Shown in pieces: positions 5,745 to 59,619 of a stretch of 64,000 nt of DNA. The position numbers and the translations under genes were made by a program. The stretch's first letter is position 1, and the number at the start of each line of letters is the position of its first letter. Location of the stretch: positions 1 through 64,000 of the forward strand of contig CALGOB010000010.1 in the NCBI GenBank assembly GCA_937958005.1. Reading direction: 5' to 3'. The notes below the pieces were generated by a model that was not told where the DNA came from, searched no databases, and saw only the letters and a list, made by a program, of their open reading frames with translations. The DNA is from an uncultured Cyclobacteriaceae bacterium. Its GTDB lineage: Bacteria > Bacteroidota > Bacteroidia > Cytophagales > Cyclobacteriaceae.

Positions 5745-6101
5745 ATGCCAGTTACCACTATTTTACATAAAGGAAAAAGGGTAGTTTACATAGATTATTC
5801 AAATCTAAAAACAGAGGAAGAGGCTATGAAAACACTCTATGAAGTGAGGGATTATTTAGTAAATTCTCCTACCAAGGTTCTAAAACTCAATAATGTCACC
5901 AATGCATTTGCCAGTACACAATTTATGAATGAGACAAAAAAACTTAGCAAAGAAATTCTAGATGAAAAAACAGAGAAAGGCGCTATAATTGGTATCAGTA
6001 GGATACAAAAAATACTATTAAGGAGTGTCAATATTTTTCTAAAAGAAAAGCTAAAACCATTTGACACAATGGAAGAAGCTCTTGACTATTTAGCTGCTTA
6101 A
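5745..6101 (+). CDS. Small protein, possibly STAS/SpoIIAA-like
   Basis: 118 residues, no signal peptide or membrane segment. It starts with a beta-hairpin-like stretch (TTILHKGKRVVYIDYSNLKT), then alternates helices and short hydrophobic strands (KVLKLNNVTNAFAS, EKGAIIGISRIQKILLRS) and ends with a helix (FDTMEEALDYLAA). That pattern and length suggest a STAS or SpoIIAA-like fold, a family that includes regulators of kinases and phosphatases, but I cannot confirm it. The fold-back element R2 copy A ends 22 bases upstream, so the promoter must lie within or beyond that repeat. The gene converges on the amine oxidase gene, 14 bases away. Confidence 0.6.
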   Translation: MPVTTILHKGKRVVYIDYSNLKTEEEAMKTLYEVRDYLVNSPTKVLKLNNVTNAFASTQFMNETKKLSKEILDEKTEKGAIIGISRIQKILLRSVNIFLKEKLKPFDTMEEALDYLAA

Positions 6102-24107: not shown

Positions 24108-24344
24108 TTAATCTTGAAGTACACTCTCTTCTAGAGATACTTGATAAATCTCTTCTATTTTGCTCTTGAATATTACAAATGCTTCATCTGAAAGTTCATC
24201 AGTTTTGGATGGCTCTTCTAATTGGTCAAAATTTATATTCAATGCATCTAATTCATCAAACAATTCTAATCCCAATCTCTGCCATGCCATGGCACTAATG
24301 TTTGTATCACACCACTTCTTCAACACTTCAGTTCTAACTCCCAT
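24108..24344 (-). CDS. Small KWC/MAW/LEEPS protein, cassette A
   Basis: 78 residues, acidic, no signal peptide. I do not recognise a family. It shares a clear pattern with the 76-residue gene at 56151: KKWCDTNISAMAWQR here and KKWCEENITPMAWPR there, then a helix, LEEPS, a short acidic gap, and a helix ending in IEEIYQV/LMTIYDM. Both genes are third in a row behind a histidine kinase and a receiver-SpoIIE protein, 21 bases after the latter here. The conserved Cys, paired Trp residues and fixed position suggest a small partner or target of the phosphatase; that role is inference. Confidence 0.75.
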   Translation of the reverse strand: MGVRTEVLKKWCDTNISAMAWQRLGLELFDELDALNINFDQLEEPSKTDELSDEAFVIFKSKIEEIYQVSLEESVLQD

Positions 24345-24365
24345 TTTCTATGTTTAATTGCTCCT

Positions 24366-25646
24366 TTAATTATTTTCTTTTTTCAATTCAAAACCCATTA
24401 CCAAAACATCATCTGTTTGATCTTCATTCCCTTTCCAATCTTTAAATTTTTCTTCCAAAAGAAGTTTCTGTTGATTTTGTTCTTTATTGCTTATACTTTT
24501 AAGTAATTTCTCAAATGATGATTTTGAAAATTTCTTAGAGTTATCCCCACCAAACTGATCTTTATAACCATCACTATATAAATAGAAGGAATCAACTCCT
24601 TCTAAAGATATTTCTTTTGTTTCAAAAACAATGTCTAATTCGAAATTTCCACCTATACCAAACTTAACGCCTTTTTCAATAGATTGTTTGTTATTTCTGA
24701 AAATCATTAGCTCTTGTCTTGCGCCTGCAAAGGATAATGACTTTTTAGATTTGTCAATAATTACCACCGCAACATCCATGCCATCCCTGTTTCCATTCTT
24801 ATCCTGATTGAGAATTGACTGAACTCCTTCATTCAAAAGCAGCAGAACTTCCTTAGGGTCAGTTACTTGTTTATTATAAATAATATCATTCATCAGCAAA
24901 TCCCCAATCATACTCAGTAAAGCCCCAGGTACACCATGGCCTGTGCAATCTAACAAAGCAATTATTTCTAAATCTTCATTAGAAGGATTAACTCCATACC
25001 AATAATAATCTCCACTTACTTTTTGTAATGGTTTATGATAAATAAATGTCTTTAATAAGCTATTCTCCATTTCTTCCTCTTGTGGAAGCATTGATTTTTG
25101 AATAAACGAAGCATATTCAATACTGTCCTTGAACCGATCATTGGAAAGCTCCAATTCCTTAGTTCTTAACTTAACTTTCTCTTCTAGCTCATTATTCAAC
25201 TTCTCCAATGACTGGTTGGCCACATGGAGTTCATCCACTAAAGAATTTTTTTGTTTTTTAAGCTCTAAGCTTTCCAAGGCTTTATCCATGGTCTGCTTCA
25301 TTTCACCTTTATCGTATGGCTTGGTTACATATTTATAAACGCCACATTTATTAATGGCTTTTATAATAGCTTCAATATCAGCGAAACCTGTCAGTATAAT
25401 CCTCATTAAATTAGGAAACTCATCTACTGTTTGTTCCAATAACTCTGTACCAGTCATTTCTGGCATCTTTTGATCAGTTACAATGAGATGAATATTTTCT
25501 CTTCGCATCAGCTCGATTGCTTCATCGCCGCTTATTGCCGTGAACACATTATAACTTCTCCTAAATCCACTTTTGAAGATTCTCAAGTTAATCTCTTCAT
25601 CATCTACATAAAGGACATTGTATTTTTTATCAGTAATTTCTGCCAT
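24366..25646 (-). CDS. Response regulator with SpoIIE-type PP2C phosphatase domain, cassette A
   Basis: 426 residues. Receiver domain 8-125 with DD15-16, phospho-acceptor Asp58 (IVTDQKMP) and Lys109 (VTKPY). A coiled coil follows (about 125-180). The phosphatase domain (about 195-420) keeps every metal-binding segment I expect: VSGDYYW (Asp213), LLDCTGHGVPGAL (Asp233), RDGMD (288-291), YSDGYKDQFGG (Asp359) and QTDDVLVMG (Asp412/413). It should dephosphorylate Ser/Thr proteins when its receiver is phosphorylated by the kinase upstream, whose gene ends 15 bases away. No STAS or anti-sigma kinase gene is adjacent; the following small gene is the only candidate partner on the transcript. Confidence 0.92.
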   Translation of the reverse strand: MAEITDKKYNVLYVDDEEINLRIFKSGFRRSYNVFTAISGDEAIELMRRENIHLIVTDQKMPEMTGTELLEQTVDEFPNLMRIILTGFADIEAIIKAINKCGVYKYVTKPYDKGEMKQTMDKALESLELKKQKNSLVDELHVANQSLEKLNNELEEKVKLRTKELELSNDRFKDSIEYASFIQKSMLPQEEEMENSLLKTFIYHKPLQKVSGDYYWYGVNPSNEDLEIIALLDCTGHGVPGALLSMIGDLLMNDIIYNKQVTDPKEVLLLLNEGVQSILNQDKNGNRDGMDVAVVIIDKSKKSLSFAGARQELMIFRNNKQSIEKGVKFGIGGNFELDIVFETKEISLEGVDSFYLYSDGYKDQFGGDNSKKFSKSSFEKLLKSISNKEQNQQKLLLEEKFKDWKGNEDQTDDVLVMGFELKKENN

Positions 25647-25661
25647 TGTGACGAATAAGTT

Positions 25662-28600
25662 TTATTTAGATAATTTAGGAAGATTAATTACAAATTCAGT
25701 CCCTTTTCCTACTTCACTGTTAACATTGATAGTTCCATCGTGCTTTTCAATAATTCCATAACTTATAGAAAGACCAAGACCTGTACCTACTCCAACATCT
25801 TTTGTAGTGAAAAATGGTTCAAAAATTCTCTTTTTAACATGCTCAGGAATCCCAATACCATTATCCTTAATCCTGATTTTAATCACACTATCAGTATCTT
25901 CAGTAAATATTTCAATAACTGGTTTTTCATGATCTTCTGGAAATGCTTGAACCGCATTATTCAAAAGATTCATAAATACTTGATTTAACTGTCCTGGGTA
26001 GCAAAAGATACTTGACATATCTTCATCAAAAAACCTCTTGACCAGAACTTTATCTTTCGTTTTGTTTCTTAGAAGAATAAGTGTCGCATCTAAATTTTCA
26101 TTTACGTTTGCTTTTTTACGCTCCTCCTCATCTAGTCTTGAGAATACTCTCAGTCCTTTTACGATCTCGATTGTCCTGACTGCACCCACTTTGATATCAT
26201 CAATCATCTGATTAATATCCTCAGTTAAGAATTCATAATCTAATTTATCCTTCAAGTCTTTGATTTCCTGTAAAATATCATCAAAATTACTATTGGCATT
26301 ATCCAAATCTTCATATTTATTAATAATGGTCATCATCTCATCCATAGATTCTTTAAGAGTCTCCACTCCATTATAAACGAAATTGATTGGGTTATTAATT
26401 TCATGAGCAATACCTGCTGTAAGCTGTCCTAAGGATGCCATTTTCTCAGAATTCACCAATTGAGATTGTGCCTCTTTCAACGAATCCATCGCATTCAATA
26501 GCTTACTAGAACCTTCTCTTTCTTTATCGAGTGTTTTCTTCAGTTCTTTTTCAGCAAGAATTAATTTTTCTGCCGCTTTAGTTTGTTCTAAAGCAACTTT
26601 CTGCATTTTCTTACTCATAGCAAGAGATTTCTCATTTGCTTTCCTAAGTGCTTCTTCTTGTTTCTTTTGTTCTGTAACGTCTTTAATAGTAAACTGAGTA
26701 AGAGGTTGTCCGTCTCTCATTTCAATAAATGAACCATTAATGAGAGAATCTATCAGTGTCCCATCAGGTCTTTGCAGTACCCACTCAAATTCTTGTGTAC
26801 CCTTCTCGATTACTTGTCCGAATATTCCATTTAGTTTCTCTACGCTGGTTGTTCCATCTGGCTGAAATTCAGGAGAAATATCAAATGAAGTCTTACCTAA
26901 TAATTCAGAGTCACCTTTAAATCCAAAGAGGTTTAAAAAGGATTGGTTAGTTTCCACAAATTGTTCTCCATGAATCATTACAATTCCATCCAGTGATATA
27001 CTTTCAAGTTTATGTCGTATTGCAACCGCTCTTTCTAGCTCTTCCTGAGCTTGTTTTTCTACTGTAATATCTTTGATTGTTAATTGGAATAGTGGTTTAC
27101 CATCTAATTCCTCAATAAAAATCATGTTTACAAGACCAAGAAACTGCGAGCCGTCAGGCCTTTGGTGTAACCACTCAAACTCATTTGTTCTATTCTCAAT
27201 GGTATATTTAATTCTTTCCACCGCTTTTTCCATCGCCGGTGTTCCATCAGGTTGTATAGGTGCAGATACATCCGTAATAAACTTGCCTTCAATACTATCA
27301 AACCCAAAGAAGTCCAAGTATGATTGATTCGCATCTGTAAACTCCTCTCCATGTAAGATTAAAATTCCATCATTAGAAATCTCAAATAATTTCTGTCTTA
27401 ATTCTGCCGCTTGACGAAGAGATTCATTCGCACGTTTCTCTATGGTAATGTCCTTTACTGTAAACTCCATTAAAGGTTTTTCATCTCTCATTTCAATAAA
27501 TGCTCCTGAAATTAAAGCATCAAATTCTGTTCCATCAAGTTTAGTGTGAACCCATTCAAAATTATTAGTTCCATTCTCAATGGTTTTGTTAATTTCGGCC
27601 ATCGCTGCAGCAGAACTGAGTTGACCATCAGGCTGAAATTCTGGAGAAAAATCAGCAGGTGTTTTGCCTATAAAATCAGATGGGTCTTTAACTCCATATA
27701 TTTCAAGTCCTGCTCTATTTGTTTCCAAGAATACTCCCCCATGTGCCAATAAAATTCCATCATTGGAAATATCAAGTAATTTTTTCCTCATTTCAATTGC
27801 CTTAGTCTGTTCCAATGCAATGTCTCGCATCTTCTTACTCATGGCATTTGCTTTCTCACTCGCTTCTCTTAAACTTTCTTCTTGTTGCTTTCTCTCAGAA
27901 ATATCCTTAATAGTAAATTGAGTTAATGGTTGATCATCTTTCATTTCAATAAAAGAACCGTTGATCAAGGTATCAAATGTACTCCCATCTGGACGTTGTA
28001 ATTGCCACTCAAATTCTTGGGCTCCTTTTTTAATTACCTGTTCAAAAATACCATTTAATTTCTCTACACTAGTGGTCCCATCTGGCTGAAACTCTGGCGA
28101 GATGTCAAAAGAGGTCTTTCCTAATAATTGCGATTCTTTCTTAAAACCGAAAAATTTCAAGAATGACTTATTTGCTTCAGTAAATTGCTCTCCATGAATC
28201 GTCACAATTCCATCTAAAGAGATATCCACCAGTTTTTTTCTTATTGATGCCGCTTTCTCAAGTGCTTCTTTAGCTTCTTTCTCAAGTGTGATATCCTTTA
28301 TTGTCAACTGAAGAAGTGGTTTACCATCTAATTCCTCAACAAATATCATGTTTACAAGCCCAATAAACTGTGAGCCATCAGGTCGCTGGTGCAACCACTC
28401 AAACTCATTGGTTCTATTCTTTATTGCTTCTTCTATTCTCTCAACTGCCTTTTCCATCACTGGTGTCCCATCTTGTTGAATAGGTGCGGATACATCAGTA
28501 ATAAGCTTCCCTTTAATGTTATCAAAGCCGAAAAAGTCTAAATATGCCTGGTTAGCTTCTGTAAACTCCTCACCATGCAGCATCAAAATACCATCATTTG

Positions 28601-29531
28601 ATATTTCAAATAGTTTTTGTCTCATTTCGGCAGCCTTGGTTTGTTCAAGGGCAATCTCTCTCATCCTCTTACTCATGGCATTTGCCTTTTCAGTTGATTG
28701 CTTTAATATTTCTTCCTGTTGCTTTCTCTCAGAAATATCTTTGATGGTAAACTGGGTCAATGGTTGATCTTCTTTCATTTCTATGAAAGAACCATTGATC
28801 AAGGTATCAAATGTAGTGCCATCTGGACGTTGTAACTGCCAGTCAAATTCTTGAGTCCCTTTCTCTATCACTTGTCCAAAAATACCATTCAACTTCTCTA
28901 CACTGGTCATCCCATCTGGCTGAAACTCCGGAGATATATCAAATGAAGTTTTCCCTATTAATTCCGATTCTTGCTCAAATCCGAAAAAACTTAAAAAAGA
29001 ATTATTAGCCTCCACAAATCGTTCTCCATGGATCATTACAATCCCATCTAAGGAAATATTTACTAGCTTCTTTCGTATAGCGGCAGCTCTTTCTAGAGGT
29101 TCTTTTGCCTCATTTTCTTGAAGTAGATTCTCAAACAACGATTTTTGTTCAATTAATTCATGCTCTTTTTCAGCCAATAATTTACTTGCTCCCTTATTTT
29201 GAGCATAGATTTTAGAAGCTTTATTTTTTAGTTTATTGTAAGAATCTTTTGAACTACTTAATTCATTACTAGCTTCATTTAATTGACTAAGCACTTTACG
29301 CAAGGCTAAGAATCCTGTCAAAACTAATGCAGCTATCATAATTACATTAAACCACAGGTTTATTGTATTATATTGACTAACCTGTTCGATTATACTGTTA
29401 ATATTAGTGCTATCATTAACAGTATCTAACAAATCAAGTTTATTAAAAATAATGATATCACCAATCAACAAAATTGTAGCTATTATGACTGCAATTATAA
29501 TGTAATGTCTAATTAATGGTATGATTTTCAT
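25662..29531 (-). CDS. Membrane histidine kinase with six tandem PAS domains, cassette A
   Basis: 1289 residues. Two N-terminal membrane helices (about 11-30 and 61-77) bracket a short outer loop. A coiled coil leads into six PAS domains starting near residues 152, 302, 430, 581, 711 and 838. They fall into types: ISLDGIV (1, 3, 6), ISNDGIL with ITDVSAP (2, 5) and a mixed fourth; copies within a type are nearly identical over long runs. A further coiled coil precedes HisKA (GIAHEINNP, His1043) and the ATPase domain ([14 protein letters not shown]). No receiver. Several PAS domains share a QPDG segment; no haem or flavin ligand is evident. It presumably phosphorylates the adjacent receiver-phosphatase. 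Confidence 0.93.
26669..29078. repeat. Intragenic tandem PAS-coding repeats
   Basis: The stretch coding for the six PAS domains is an internal repeat array with units of roughly 380-450 bases in the order S-N-S-V-N-S. Identical strings such as ISPEFQPDG and NGSFIEM recur in several units, and at DNA level units 1, 3 and 6 share long runs. Such an array is open to unequal exchange and to misassembly from short reads. Confidence 0.85.
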
Positions 29532-56150: not shown

Positions 56151-56381
56151 TTATACAGCCACAGTCTGCGGCATTTCCATATCATAAATGGTCATTAATG
56201 CCTTATTAAAAAGCTTAAAAGTAGCTTCATCGACTGTGAATTCTTCGCTTGGTTCCTCCAAATCCTTAACAGAATAGCCCTTCTCCCTTACTTCTGGAAC
56301 AATTCTTAACACTACCCTGGGCCACGCCATAGGGGTAATATTTTCCTCACACCATTTTTTACAGTTAATGACTTTAATCAT
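56151..56381 (-). CDS. Small KWC/MAW/LEEPS protein, cassette B
   Basis: 76 residues, no signal peptide. It has the same pattern as the gene at 24108 (KKWCEENITPMAWPR, DLEEPSEEF, a final helix with LMTIYDMEM) at about 35% identity by eye. Position is the same too: 20 bases after the receiver-SpoIIE gene, last in the transcript, before a terminator. No family recognised. Conserved Trp, Cys and Trp residues suggest a fixed fold or binding surface. Confidence 0.75.
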   Translation of the reverse strand: MIKVINCKKWCEENITPMAWPRVVLRIVPEVREKGYSVKDLEEPSEEFTVDEATFKLFNKALMTIYDMEMPQTVAV

Positions 56382-56401: not shown

Positions 56402-57676
56402 TTATAATTTGAAACCTAATACTGTATAATCATCTGATTGTCCTTCGACAAACGTTTTGTTAATAGCAGTATCTATTTCGTTTTTTTGTTCCTCAAAAGG
56501 TTTAGAAACATTACTTTCAACTAGCTGGGTGAAGGTTCCAATATCCATCAAATTCTTATCCATCCCTTGCGTAGAGGAAAGGAAACCACCAGAGAACATA
56601 TAAAATGAAACTGGTTCGGTATATTTTAATGTATATTTCTTAATTGCTTCTTTAGTATCACTGGGGTCTTCTTTAGATCCCTGTACCAAAGATAAATTAT
56701 TTTCGTGGTAAATTAATACATCATGACCGACACCTGCAAAACTCAATTTTTCATTGATATGATCAATTGATACAATTGATGCTTTTACTTTACCTCCAAG
56801 TTTTTCTTCAGTACCAGATTTAAACATTTCATTGAGTTCAATAAACAAGAATTGAAGAATATCATCTGCGTTGATAATTTTTCTAGCTTGAACAATTTCA
56901 TTTACCAATGAATCTGCTATAAAACTCTGTATAGAACCTATTAAACCTTCCCCTTTACACTCCAACAATGCAATAAAAGTGTATTGTTGTCCTCTCATAT
57001 CAATGCTTCCATGCCAATAAAAGTCAGCACTCACAATGCCTTTCGGATTGTAAATCACAAAATGCTCATCAAACTTTCGTTCTAACTTAGTAGGATTAGG
57101 CAACATTGATTTTTGGAGCTTTCCTACAAAATTTATACTTTTTGTTAAATCATCATTGAGATCTGAGAGCTCTTTGGTTCTTTCTTTTACCGTACTTTCT
57201 AAACCAACATTTACTGTTTTAAGCTGCTCTACTAAATTTACATTATCTTTTTTCAATTGATAAGACTCCATTGCTTTATCAATTGTGGATTTCATTTCAC
57301 CAAAATCCCAAGGTTTTGTAATGTATTTATAGATTCCTACTTTATTTACAGCATCTTTTATTACTTCAATGTCAGTAAATCCTGTAAGTATAATAGATAT
57401 CATTTCAGGATAATCAGGAGCCATCTTTTCCAAAAACTCCGTTCCAGTCATTATAGGCATTCGTTGATCCGTAATGACTAATTGTATCTCATTATTCTTT
57501 AGTATTTCAAAAGCTTCTGTTACTGGGTCTTCTGTTACATAGACATTAAAAAGCTTTTTAAAAAGTGATTTAAATACCCTTAAATTACTCTTCTCATCAT
57601 CGATGTATAAAATACTATAAGGTTTCTTTTCTCTAACCCTTCTTTCTTTAGTAGGTTCTGCTGTTGCTATCTCCAT
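56402..57676 (-). CDS. Response regulator with degenerate SpoIIE-type phosphatase domain, cassette B
   Basis: 424 residues. The receiver domain is intact (LYIDDEKSNLR, Asp70 in VITDQRMP, Lys121 in ITKPW). The coiled coil and the LQKSMLPNP entry to the phosphatase domain match cassette A. But metal-binding segments are altered: SADFYW keeps Asp218, LLECKGEG replaces LLDCTGHG (Asp to Glu239, His to Glu243), the RDGMD segment reads GGKVKA, YSDGYKDQ reads FSGGFLSS (both Asp lost), while QSDDYTVLG keeps Asp415/416. It is probably inactive or nearly so as a phosphatase, and may bind instead. The start ATG at 57676 is 44 bases after the kinase gene. Confidence 0.88.
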   Translation of the reverse strand: MEIATAEPTKERRVREKKPYSILYIDDEKSNLRVFKSLFKKLFNVYVTEDPVTEAFEILKNNEIQLVITDQRMPIMTGTEFLEKMAPDYPEMISIILTGFTDIEVIKDAVNKVGIYKYITKPWDFGEMKSTIDKAMESYQLKKDNVNLVEQLKTVNVGLESTVKERTKELSDLNDDLTKSINFVGKLQKSMLPNPTKLERKFDEHFVIYNPKGIVSADFYWHGSIDMRGQQYTFIALLECKGEGLIGSIQSFIADSLVNEIVQARKIINADDILQFLFIELNEMFKSGTEEKLGGKVKASIVSIDHINEKLSFAGVGHDVLIYHENNLSLVQGSKEDPSDTKEAIKKYTLKYTEPVSFYMFSGGFLSSTQGMDKNLMDIGTFTQLVESNVSKPFEEQKNEIDTAINKTFVEGQSDDYTVLGFKL

Positions 57677-57720: not shown

Positions 57721-59619
57721 TTATTTATTGAGAGAATAAACATCCTCTTTGTTTTTAGTTTTATCAATCTTTTTAGGTAGTGTAATCACAAATTCTGTAC
57801 CTACTCCTACCTCTGAATTTAACTCTATTTTTCCTCCATGCTTTTCAATAATGCCAAATGATATTGACATTCCTAAACCTGTACCTACACCTACTGGCTT
57901 AGTTGTAAAAAATGGTTCAAATATTCTCTGACGAACCTCGTCAGGAATACCACAACCATTGTCTTTTATTCTAATAACAACCGCATTGTCATCTATATTT
58001 TCAGTATAGATTTGAATTTCAGGGTTTTTTCTATCTTCAGGCATTGCTTGTATAGCATTGTTCAAGATATTCATATATACCTGATTTAACTGACCTGGAT
58101 AGCATTCTATCTCCCCAATGGTGTCATCATAGAATTTTGAAACTGTGATTTTATTTTTAGTCTTATTTTTAAGCAGTGTTAATGTTGCATCAATATTTTC
58201 ATTAATTAATGCTGGCTTACTTTCTTCTTCATCAAGTCTAGAGAATACCCTTAGGCCTTTTACAATTTCAATGGTTCTTACGGCTCCGTAATTTACGTCG
58301 TTCAAAATCTCATCCAAATCTTCTAAAAGCTCTTCGTATTCTACATCTTCTTTAAGTTCTAATATTTCCTCTTTTAATTCTGCAGGATCTGTACCCTCCT
58401 CCTCTAATTCAGAATATTTCTCAAGTACTTCCTTAACTGATTCTAAAGACATTTTAATGGAACTAATTCCATTGTATATAAAGTTTATTGGATTATTAAT
58501 CTCATGTGCAATTCCCGCTGTTAATTGTCCTAGAGAAGCCATTTTTTCAGAGTGTACCAACTGAGATTGTGTACCTTTCAGCCTATTCATGGCATCATTG
58601 AGGTTTTTAGTTGCTGACTGCTCTTTTGATAACAGGTCTTTCATTTTCTTCTCAGCTAAGAATAGTTTTTCATTATCTTCTAACTGCTTATCAGCTAATT
58701 CCCTAATCTCAACTTCAGAATTTTGAAGTTTCTGATAAGCTCCCTCTAAATCCTTCTGTGTTTTTAATAATTTCTCGTTAATGGATATCTGCTCTTTGGT
58801 ACTTCTTAACAATTTCTTTTCAGATTCTTCCAATTGAGCGTTTTTGATCTCCATTTGTTTTTTAGACCTTTTCAACTCTTTATTTACCGCTATTTGAGAA
58901 TCATATGACTTTCTTAAATCCTCTTCAGATTTCTTCACTTTTTGATAAGCTTTATTTGCTGAAAGAAAGTTTTTACCTGCTAAATTAACTGTGGGTCTAA
59001 AAATGAATAATGATTGAATTAATAATATGGCTCCTAGTGAACCTAATAAAACCCATTCCAACAAAGAATAACGGCCAATGTTTACTTCTGAAGTTGCTAA
59101 GAACCTGTTGGCCATTTCCTGTGTCCTTTCAGTAAAATTTCGTTCTAGTTGAAATATGTCATTCGTAAAACGCTGGAGTTTAAGTTTCCTATCCCCATCC
59201 TTAAATTTCACCAATATCAAGCTATTACTCGAATTTTCTAATAATGTATTGTAACCTTTTGTTTCTTGATACAAAGAAGCAATTTCATTATCATCCAACT
59301 GAGATTCTATCCCTAAATCATCACTTCCATCTCGAATTCCTTTGTATATCAATTGGAGTCTTTCAAGCGAACTCTCTACCTCAGCTTGAGCTCTTACGTA
59401 GTTCTTTTCGCTACGGTCAGAGGCATAAACCATGGCTGCGGCTGATTTTGCAATCTTTTGTATCATAATAGATTGTTCCCCTGCGAGGTTAATCAATTTA
59501 TTATTGACATTTTTTGCTTCAAGTACATCTCTTTGAAAGACAAACTCATTCGCAACTACAATACCTATTATCAAGGCAATTGTGATCACATATAGAATAG
59601 TAAATAAATTATTCTTCAT
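57721..59619 (-). CDS. Membrane histidine kinase with PilJ-like sensor, cassette B
   Basis: 632 residues. Two membrane helices (about 7-25 and 188-208) flank an outer four-helix region whose opening, NLAGEQSIMIQKIAKSAAAM, resembles the PilJ/NarX-type sensor of nitrate and type IV pili chemoreceptors. A long coiled coil (about 220-350) precedes HisKA ([14 protein letters not shown], His372) and the ATPase domain (GVGTGLGMSISFGIIEK). It has no PAS domain, unlike the cassette A kinase, but its HisKA and ATPase parts are closely similar to that protein. It should phosphorylate the receiver protein encoded next. Confidence 0.9.
   Translation of the reverse strand: MKNNLFTILYVITIALIIGIVVANEFVFQRDVLEAKNVNNKLINLAGEQSIMIQKIAKSAAAMVYASDRSEKNYVRAQAEVESSLERLQLIYKGIRDGSDDLGIESQLDDNEIASLYQETKGYNTLLENSSNSLILVKFKDGDRKLKLQRFTNDIFQLERNFTERTQEMANRFLATSEVNIGRYSLLEWVLLGSLGAILLIQSLFIFRPTVNLAGKNFLSANKAYQKVKKSEEDLRKSYDSQIAVNKELKRSKKQMEIKNAQLEESEKKLLRSTKEQISINEKLLKTQKDLEGAYQKLQNSEVEIRELADKQLEDNEKLFLAEKKMKDLLSKEQSATKNLNDAMNRLKGTQSQLVHSEKMASLGQLTAGIAHEINNPINFIYNGISSIKMSLESVKEVLEKYSELEEEGTDPAELKEEILELKEDVEYEELLEDLDEILNDVNYGAVRTIEIVKGLRVFSRLDEEESKPALINENIDATLTLLKNKTKNKITVSKFYDDTIGEIECYPGQLNQVYMNILNNAIQAMPEDRKNPEIQIYTENIDDNAVVIRIKDNGCGIPDEVRQRIFEPFFTTKPVGVGTGLGMSISFGIIEKHGGKIELNSEVGVGTEFVITLPKKIDKTKNKEDVYSLNK

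Follow-up and report, generated by a model that had tools for sequence, protein, structure and literature searches.

Response regulators with a pseudo-PP2C output domain are known, RssB being one example. RssB of Pseudomonas aeruginosa and Escherichia coli combines a receiver, a helical linker and a PP2C fold, and it delivers a sigma factor, sigma-S, to ClpXP. Its role is described as independent of phosphatase activity, with the switch helices serving regulation; in SpoIIE, in RsbU and in RssB as an adaptor, these helices form the switch that is moved by linker and regulatory domains (excerpts of PMC5468089 and PMC12143880). SiaA is reported as the phosphatase of SiaC, and its PP2C part as a homodimer formed by the first helices (excerpt of PMC7647112). 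For HsbR/CrsR, two-component control of a PP2C domain is described within a partner switch in which a diguanylate cyclase takes part as well (excerpt of PMC6482189).

The DNA analyzed here (the window, 64,000 nucleotides of contig CALGOB010000010.1 from an uncultured Cyclobacteriaceae bacterium) carries two cassettes, A (24108-29531) and B, with identical gene order. The regulator of cassette B (hereafter B) has the receiver, helical linker and PP2C-like domain of RssB. On a narrow balance of probability, we regard it as a receiver-gated pseudo-phosphatase of RssB-like design that would modulate a SiaABC circuit by binding. The features were as follows.

57721-59619, minus strand: sensor histidine kinase of cassette B, 632 aa (HATPase_c above cut-off, HisKA below cut-off)
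56402-57676, minus strand: response regulator of cassette B, 424 aa; receiver, helical linker and probably catalytically degenerate PP2C/SpoIIE domain
57281-57613, minus strand: receiver domain (Response_reg), residues 22-132; Pfam 66.5 bits against a cut-off of 30.2; D70 and K121 kept
57107-57304, minus strand: long predicted helical linker, residues 125-190
56405-57097, minus strand: PP2C-fold domain, residues 194-424; Pfam SpoIIE below cut-off
56816-56965, minus strand: altered active-site loop and switch helices a1/a2, residues 238-287; 98 % identity with the same-genus orthologue (domain average 73 %)
56151-56381, minus strand: small conserved partner gene of cassette B, 76 aa, 20 bp downstream of the regulator
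25662-29531, minus strand: histidine kinase of cassette A, 1289 aa, with several PAS domains
24366-25646, minus strand: regulator of cassette A, 426 aa, with B-like architecture and six intact aspartates (comparison copy)
24108-24344, minus strand: small partner gene of cassette A, 78 aa

The reading frame of B (424 codons and a stop, starting with the ATG at 57676 on the minus strand) and its motif changes were found as the initial annotation had described them. The receiver retains D26, D27 and T98 in addition to Asp70 and Lys121, the two residues that had been reported as kept. Pfam SpoIIE scored 18.3 bits in B, under the cut-off of 25, versus 51.3 bits in the regulator of cassette A. A profile of intact PP2C domains matched B over its full length with 156 bits. 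B was modelled with AlphaFold as a single chain (mean pLDDT 78.4). Metal positions were taken from sequence alignment and not from superposition. The full-length match to P. aeruginosa RssB in the PDB (Z 26.3, 362 residues aligned, rmsd 7.9 Å) and the match of the phosphatase part to SiaA-PP2C, 6k4e_B (Z 25.8, 239 residues aligned, 3.3 Å), were tied in Z. The high rmsd of the RssB match probably stems from differing domain angles. The 6k4e_B match and the intact-PP2C profile both place a PP2C fold in B.

When B was compared with curated models, it reached 45.1 bits against RssB, far under the NF045505 cut-off of 700, and 90.8 bits over residues 146-424 against NCBIfam SiaA, below the NF038263 cut-off of 700. 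Its neighbours also set B apart from RssB: it lies next to a kinase and the small gene, which are joined in relatives by siaABC. The PP2C domain of B is of the same type as that of SiaA, and its cassette is linked to siaB and siaC in relatives. However, B takes a receiver as its input and is without D600 and the M3-supporting residues (see below). With HsbR, B shares a PP2C domain under two-component control, whereas the third kinase/anti-sigma domain of HsbR is missing from B, in which a Pfam scan up to E 10 listed no HATPase family. In addition, the HsbR phosphatase is reported to work and that of B probably does not. Judged from its sequence, B is therefore not RssB by the curated model, not SiaA and, without a third domain, not HsbR. 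The new elements are the distance from the curated RssB model, the SiaABC setting, the partner gene and the existence of intact versions in similar gene neighbourhoods. Among the open-licence PMC full texts listed by literature searches, none described a pseudo-phosphatase regulator with a link to SiaABC.

The surroundings of B-type regulators were counted in 15 relative loci (L036-L049 and L092). A kinase-B homologue lies upstream of the regulator in all 15 (two of the kinases are cut by contig ends), and a small gene of 75-83 aa lies downstream in all of them. Beyond the kinase, a SiaB-family gene was present in 12 loci (one cut; the contigs of L044 and L046 end earlier, and L036, from the same genus as the window, is the exception). 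SiaC adjoins SiaB in 11 (one cut). An intact HAMP-SpoIIE (SiaA-like) phosphatase ends beside the small gene in 12 of the 15 loci, the others being L036, L039 and L044. The full block, with the cassette between siaA and siaBC together with a coiled-coil gene and two flanking genes, was seen in ten. We take the two flanking genes to be DUF302 and DUF2911. Marinoscillum furvescens DSM 4134 (L038) and Ekhidna lutea DSM 19307 (L045) both have the cassette placed between siaA and siaBC. Among all 21 loci with dead regulators, siaA is adjacent in 17; the motif pattern used at first missed L077, which was recovered by phmmer, and L039 and L044 are the same sequences as L063 and L075. In the genome of the window and in G001, the block is present without the cassette, which is located elsewhere, and siaA lies beside siaB; in L136 and L137, from other families, siaA lies beside siaBC without the cassette. 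As the cassette of the window's own genus does not adjoin siaABC, the link between the two is drawn from the relatives.

The Sia families were scored against curated models. SiaC of the window's genome reached 134.2 bits against PF09345 (cut-off 24.5), the three tested copies of the SiaB-family kinase 129.5, 124.6 and 132.5 bits against NF038262 (cut-off 85), and two SiaA copies 219.8 and 194.6 bits against the equivalog NF038263, which is far above chance and below the cut-off of 700.

It is unlikely, in our estimate, that B acts outside SiaABC as an RssB-type adaptor, its dead PP2C domain delivering a sigma factor or another regulator to a protease as the receiver dictates and the small gene being an anti-adaptor-like regulator. 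RssB gave the top full-length structural matches of the B model, structures of RssB with IraM and IraD were among the matches by their titles, and RssB itself is described as a receiver plus a PP2C-like adaptor in which phosphatase activity is not needed (excerpt of PMC5468089). However, B stays far from the curated RssB model, the neighbours that can be named in relatives are SiaABC genes, and the small protein had no PDB match at E 0.001 or better.

The small gene has a reading of its own, which we consider somewhat more improbable still, namely that the regulator titrates or presents the 76-aa protein, which would stay bound to the dead domain or be set free depending on receiver state. The protein was modelled as helical with high confidence (pLDDT 94.5). 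No family for it was found in Pfam or NCBIfam at E 1, which points to a small protein family without a model in either, and the Foldseek search returned no PDB match at the threshold given above. There were 49 matches in 31 of 295 genomes of the bacterial family; among 395 genomes drawn phylum-wide, 394 gave no match at E 1e-6, and only the window's own genome matched. The small gene directly follows the regulator in B, in A and in the 15 relative loci, and 14 of the 49 matches lack an immediately preceding regulator, so that the domain may function on its own as well. Dead regulators precede 21 of the matches (in 21 genomes, B included), but intact ones precede 12 (cassette A, L080-L088, L095 and L146), and for this reason titration does not explain the catalytic loss. 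The last two matches follow regulators without detectable PP2C (L096, L101), which were excluded from both classes. The suggestion of the initial annotation that B titrates the shared small partner is therefore possible and has no specific support, as the small gene follows dead and intact regulators alike. In the preferred reading, the small protein probably binds the regulator as an accessory.

The kinase of cassette B lies 44 bp upstream of its regulator. Kinases A and B share 60 % identity across 312 C-terminal residues, and regulators A and B share 37 % over 423 columns. Dead and intact cassettes co-occur in three genomes (the window's, G154 and G091).

Active-site residues are numbered here after Pseudomonas SiaA-PP2C (6K4E), the best PDB relative of the phosphatase part of cassette A, which was mapped onto it by phmmer alignment. 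D457, D474, D600 and D653 are among the strictly conserved active-site residues of SiaA. Metals M1 and M2 are held by three conserved aspartates that are individually unnamed, D600 additionally holds M3, and D534 and D604 support M3 via water; whether M3 is general is left open there (excerpt of PMC7647112). For SpoIIE, the metal side chains named in the excerpted source are D628, D746 and D795, which on a reading of the motifs would correspond to SiaA D474, D600 and D653. The altered positions in B are listed below.

56960-56962, minus strand: E239, aligned with SiaA D474; Asp to Glu, a conservative change
56783-56785, minus strand: K298, aligned with SiaA D534 (M3 support); Asp to Lys, with K or R in 21 of 21 B-type sequences
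56588-56590, minus strand: G363, aligned with SiaA D600 (metal ligand); Asp lost, with G, K or N in 21 of 21 B-type sequences
56576-56578, minus strand: S367, aligned with SiaA D604 (M3 support); Asp lost

When the six sites 457, 474, 534, 600, 604 and 653 were read from the alignment and the codons checked, B had D, E, K, G, S and D. Four of the six active-site aspartates are replaced (D474E, D534K, D600G and D604S), and D457 (B D218) and D653 (B D415) are kept; cassette A has Asp at all six. The strictly conserved set of 457, 474, 600 and 653 is broken in B by the Gly at 600 and the Glu at 474, and neither M3-supporting Asp is present. Of the probable direct ligands D474, D600 and D653, one is Glu, one lost and one kept in B. 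It had been stated previously that at least three or four of the metal-holding aspartates were gone. Four changed sites agree with this number, but only D600 is lost among the three probable direct ligands, while the change at D474 is conservative, D653 is kept, and the loss at D534 and D604 concerns second-shell support.

We also compared B with other PP2C proteins of its own genome; in the loci tested, nine proteins exceeded 130 bits against the intact-PP2C profile. Six of the nine keep Asp at 457, 474, 600, 604 and 653, one of them (SiaA) having Glu at 534. The remaining three are B, L004 and L018. L004 (L004:1474-2643, minus strand, contig C170) also combines a receiver with PP2C, but its metal residues are lost in another pattern (V, D, N, S, G and Y at the six sites), and its 4.1 kb locus contains no kinase or small gene.

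Fourteen loci (L036-L049) were obtained when genome contigs were scanned with four aligned B-type proteins, and all 14 are altered at 474, 534, 600 and 604 and, like B, retain the D, D, D, T and K of the receiver. These loci form a subset of 21 distinct B-type sequences (B included) from 21 genomes, in which the same ligand loss was found in 21 of 21. D600 is replaced by N, K or G and D534 by K or R, D604 is never Asp, site 474 is Glu in 20 sequences and Ala in one (L041), and D653 is retained throughout. Site 457 is Glu in all except the two same-genus sequences (B and L036). Sequencing error was rejected, as the same positions are altered in L036 and the wider clade. One of the loci, L049, is labelled Rickettsiales; its regulator is nearly identical to that of Marinoscillum pacificum (L037), and it is probably a mis-binned metagenome contig.

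That B is still a phosphatase with unusual metal use, possibly of one metal, and with weak or specific activity, seems very unlikely to us. D457 and D653 are kept in B, D474 has changed merely to Glu, and across the dead sequences Glu at 474 (20 of 21) and Asp at 653 (21 of 21) persist; because of the three residues that remain in B, metal could still bind. Against this, every one of the 21 sequences has Gly, Lys or Asn in place of D600 and lacks both M3-supporting Asp, and D457 has become Glu outside the window's genus. We infer that the domain of B is catalytically inactive because of the ligand loss together with the conservation of that loss.

A maximum-likelihood tree was drawn for 45 PP2C domains with the ligand columns removed and rooted on the SiaA PP2C; L004, with its very long branch, was omitted. 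The 21 dead sequences formed a single clade (bootstrap 100; support 100/100) nested among intact regulators, with 97/93 for the node joining this clade with L095, L002, L035 and the L080-type rows. The places of cassette A, L095 and L034 are unsure owing to long branches. Since the dead clade is nested in this way, the simplest history is one loss, which would predate the split of the window's genus from the Marinoscillum/Ekhidna group. Identity of the PP2C domain within dead pairs was 73-96 %, and synonymous sites were saturated or nearly so (pS 0.63-1.01), for which reason no dN/dS is quoted. In each of the 8 dead pairs, non-synonymous change stayed far under synonymous change, which was close to saturation. 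The ratio of PP2C to receiver non-synonymous change was 1.04-3.27 in these pairs versus 1.56-6.81 in seven intact pairs, with approximate domain borders that differ slightly between intact and dead and with one intact pair (L087/L088) spanning 77 PP2C codons. The dead-pair ratio is not above the intact-pair ratio, so there is no sign of relaxed selection, and the dead clade is under purifying selection. Ordinary decay of a duplicated phosphatase into a pseudogene, for which the length of the dead clade's stem (0.76 changes per column) would speak, was rejected as having next to no probability, given the open frame, the identical positions lost in 21 of 21 sequences and the selection pattern. 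These results (loss in 21 of 21, one clade, purifying selection) give good support to the earlier proposal that B is a pseudo-phosphatase whose receiver is kept, and the initial interpretation as a whole is supported in part.

The conservation between B and L036 was also examined by segment. Identity was 96 % at the linker end (170-193), 100 % in the loop and a1 (238-265) and 95 % in a2 (266-287), and it was 57 % in the region of the lost SDG motif (353-376) and 33 % at 377-412. In a circular-shift check of 238-287, 5 of 230 shifts were equally high. For helix a1, the values were 0.87 in other dead members, 0.97 in intact L080-type regulators and 0.93 in SiaA. As a1 is equally or more conserved in the intact and SiaA proteins, the switch helices are retained and not newly constrained. 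For the SDG region, the corresponding values were 0.66, 0.86 and 0.71. Lower conservation at the SDG site is only in part a feature of dead domains, and the segment comparison separates dead from active domains poorly (SiaA 0.71 versus dead 0.66). Retention of the linker and switch helices agrees with the idea that B would report the state of its receiver and not hydrolyse.

Under the preferred reading of B as a receiver-gated binding protein, cassette B would serve as a module for two-component input, with a dead PP2C domain at the end of its response regulator. The upstream kinase would phosphorylate D70, and the receiver would reposition the linker and switch helices as in PP2C dimers of the RsbU/RssB type. 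This may alter what the pseudo-phosphatase domain binds, not whether hydrolysis occurs. As the catalytic loss is kept lineage-wide beside SiaABC, B probably works by binding and not by phosphate removal. Gene order suggests SiaABC as its target, and the partner switch adjoining the cassette in most relatives is the most likely one. The domain might bind SiaC or SiaC~P, or pair with the SiaA phosphatase dimer, so that receiver state would set the amount of SiaC accessible to SiaA and SiaB. Pairing of B with SiaA is conceivable because SiaA-PP2C homodimerizes.

Intact cassettes in comparable gene settings were found in nine genomes (G246, G196, G145, G065, G090, G260, G217, G175 and G233), where they are siaB-linked (L080-L088). 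In these genomes, the SiaB match with the highest score begins some 4.4-4.7 kb ahead of the small gene on the same strand, and the gene order was read out in L093 and L094 (cassettes L083 and L080). Cassette A and these loci resemble cassette B in having a receiver-PP2C regulator followed by the small gene, with a kinase upstream in A, L093 and L094. They differ in that all six aspartates are present and no siaA was found beside them (L080-L088 by motif pattern and SiaA search, L093 and L094 also by phmmer). In the SiaA search, the nine genomes gave nothing above 258 bits: five had no hit at E 1e-60, three had an unlinked 37 % match (253-258 bits), and in G065 only the cassette regulator itself matched. 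Six genomes with dead cassettes (G000, G001, G008, G036, G094 and G154) gave 353-847 bits. The pattern is clean at the chosen score thresholds, represents few independent evolutionary events and uses the best SiaB match, all nine intact-cassette genomes carrying further SiaB copies. In L095 and L146, intact cassettes adjoin a SiaC gene. In the simplest account, ancestral regulators of B type once dephosphorylated SiaC, as their place beside siaB or siaC suggests for lineages in which no siaA is linked. In the lineage with siaA next door, catalysis would have been lost and the receiver, linker and switch kept, which would leave a receiver-gated binder of SiaC, SiaC~P or SiaA. More tentatively, and with less than an even chance, we propose that a Bacteroidota lineage has coupled a histidine kinase to SiaABC through a dedicated dead phosphatase and a 75-83 aa protein, the receiver-phosphatase found there in other lineages having turned into a receiver-gated SiaA competitor or heterodimer partner where siaBC has its own SiaA.

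If true, B would join RssB as a further response regulator with a binding-only PP2C output, and a two-component input to SiaABC would be suggested. Since intact and dead versions occur in comparable gene settings, the change from regulated phosphatase to regulated binding protein could be tested directly, as could the proposal in the excerpt of PMC5468089 that the PP2C switch outlives catalysis.

Some minor observations were made on related proteins. The window's genome has, on other contigs, five stand-alone copies of the small partner with no regulator directly upstream (L089:4257-6673, L090:5139-5372 and L091:425-670); three of these copies share a 2.5 kb stretch of a single contig. At L057:4217-9323 (own genome, contig C40), L096:1590-2822 and L101:4455-5696, a kinase is followed by a receiver protein; the C-terminal part of these receiver proteins has no Pfam family above cut-off and almost no PP2C score, and possibly represents far remains of the same output domain. 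At L098:5782-7363 and L099:4087-5384, small-partner-like genes adjoin proteins of 144-148 aa that resemble globins on visual inspection; one of these neighbours was scanned against Pfam and gave nothing at E 1. Proteins of 116-156 aa at L097:5062-5532 and in L147-L150 have a weaker small-partner match (at the C-terminal end in L097) and no adjoining regulator. They are possible domain fusions, and L147 additionally carries a 77-aa small-partner copy. In the window, the cassette A kinase (25662-29531) contains six PAS_9 stretches of look-alike sequence by Pfam scan, with no DNA array detected by Tandem Repeats Finder at periods up to 500, and a 118-aa protein at 5745-6101 has a very weak SpoIIAA-like match (14.5 bits, cut-off 25).
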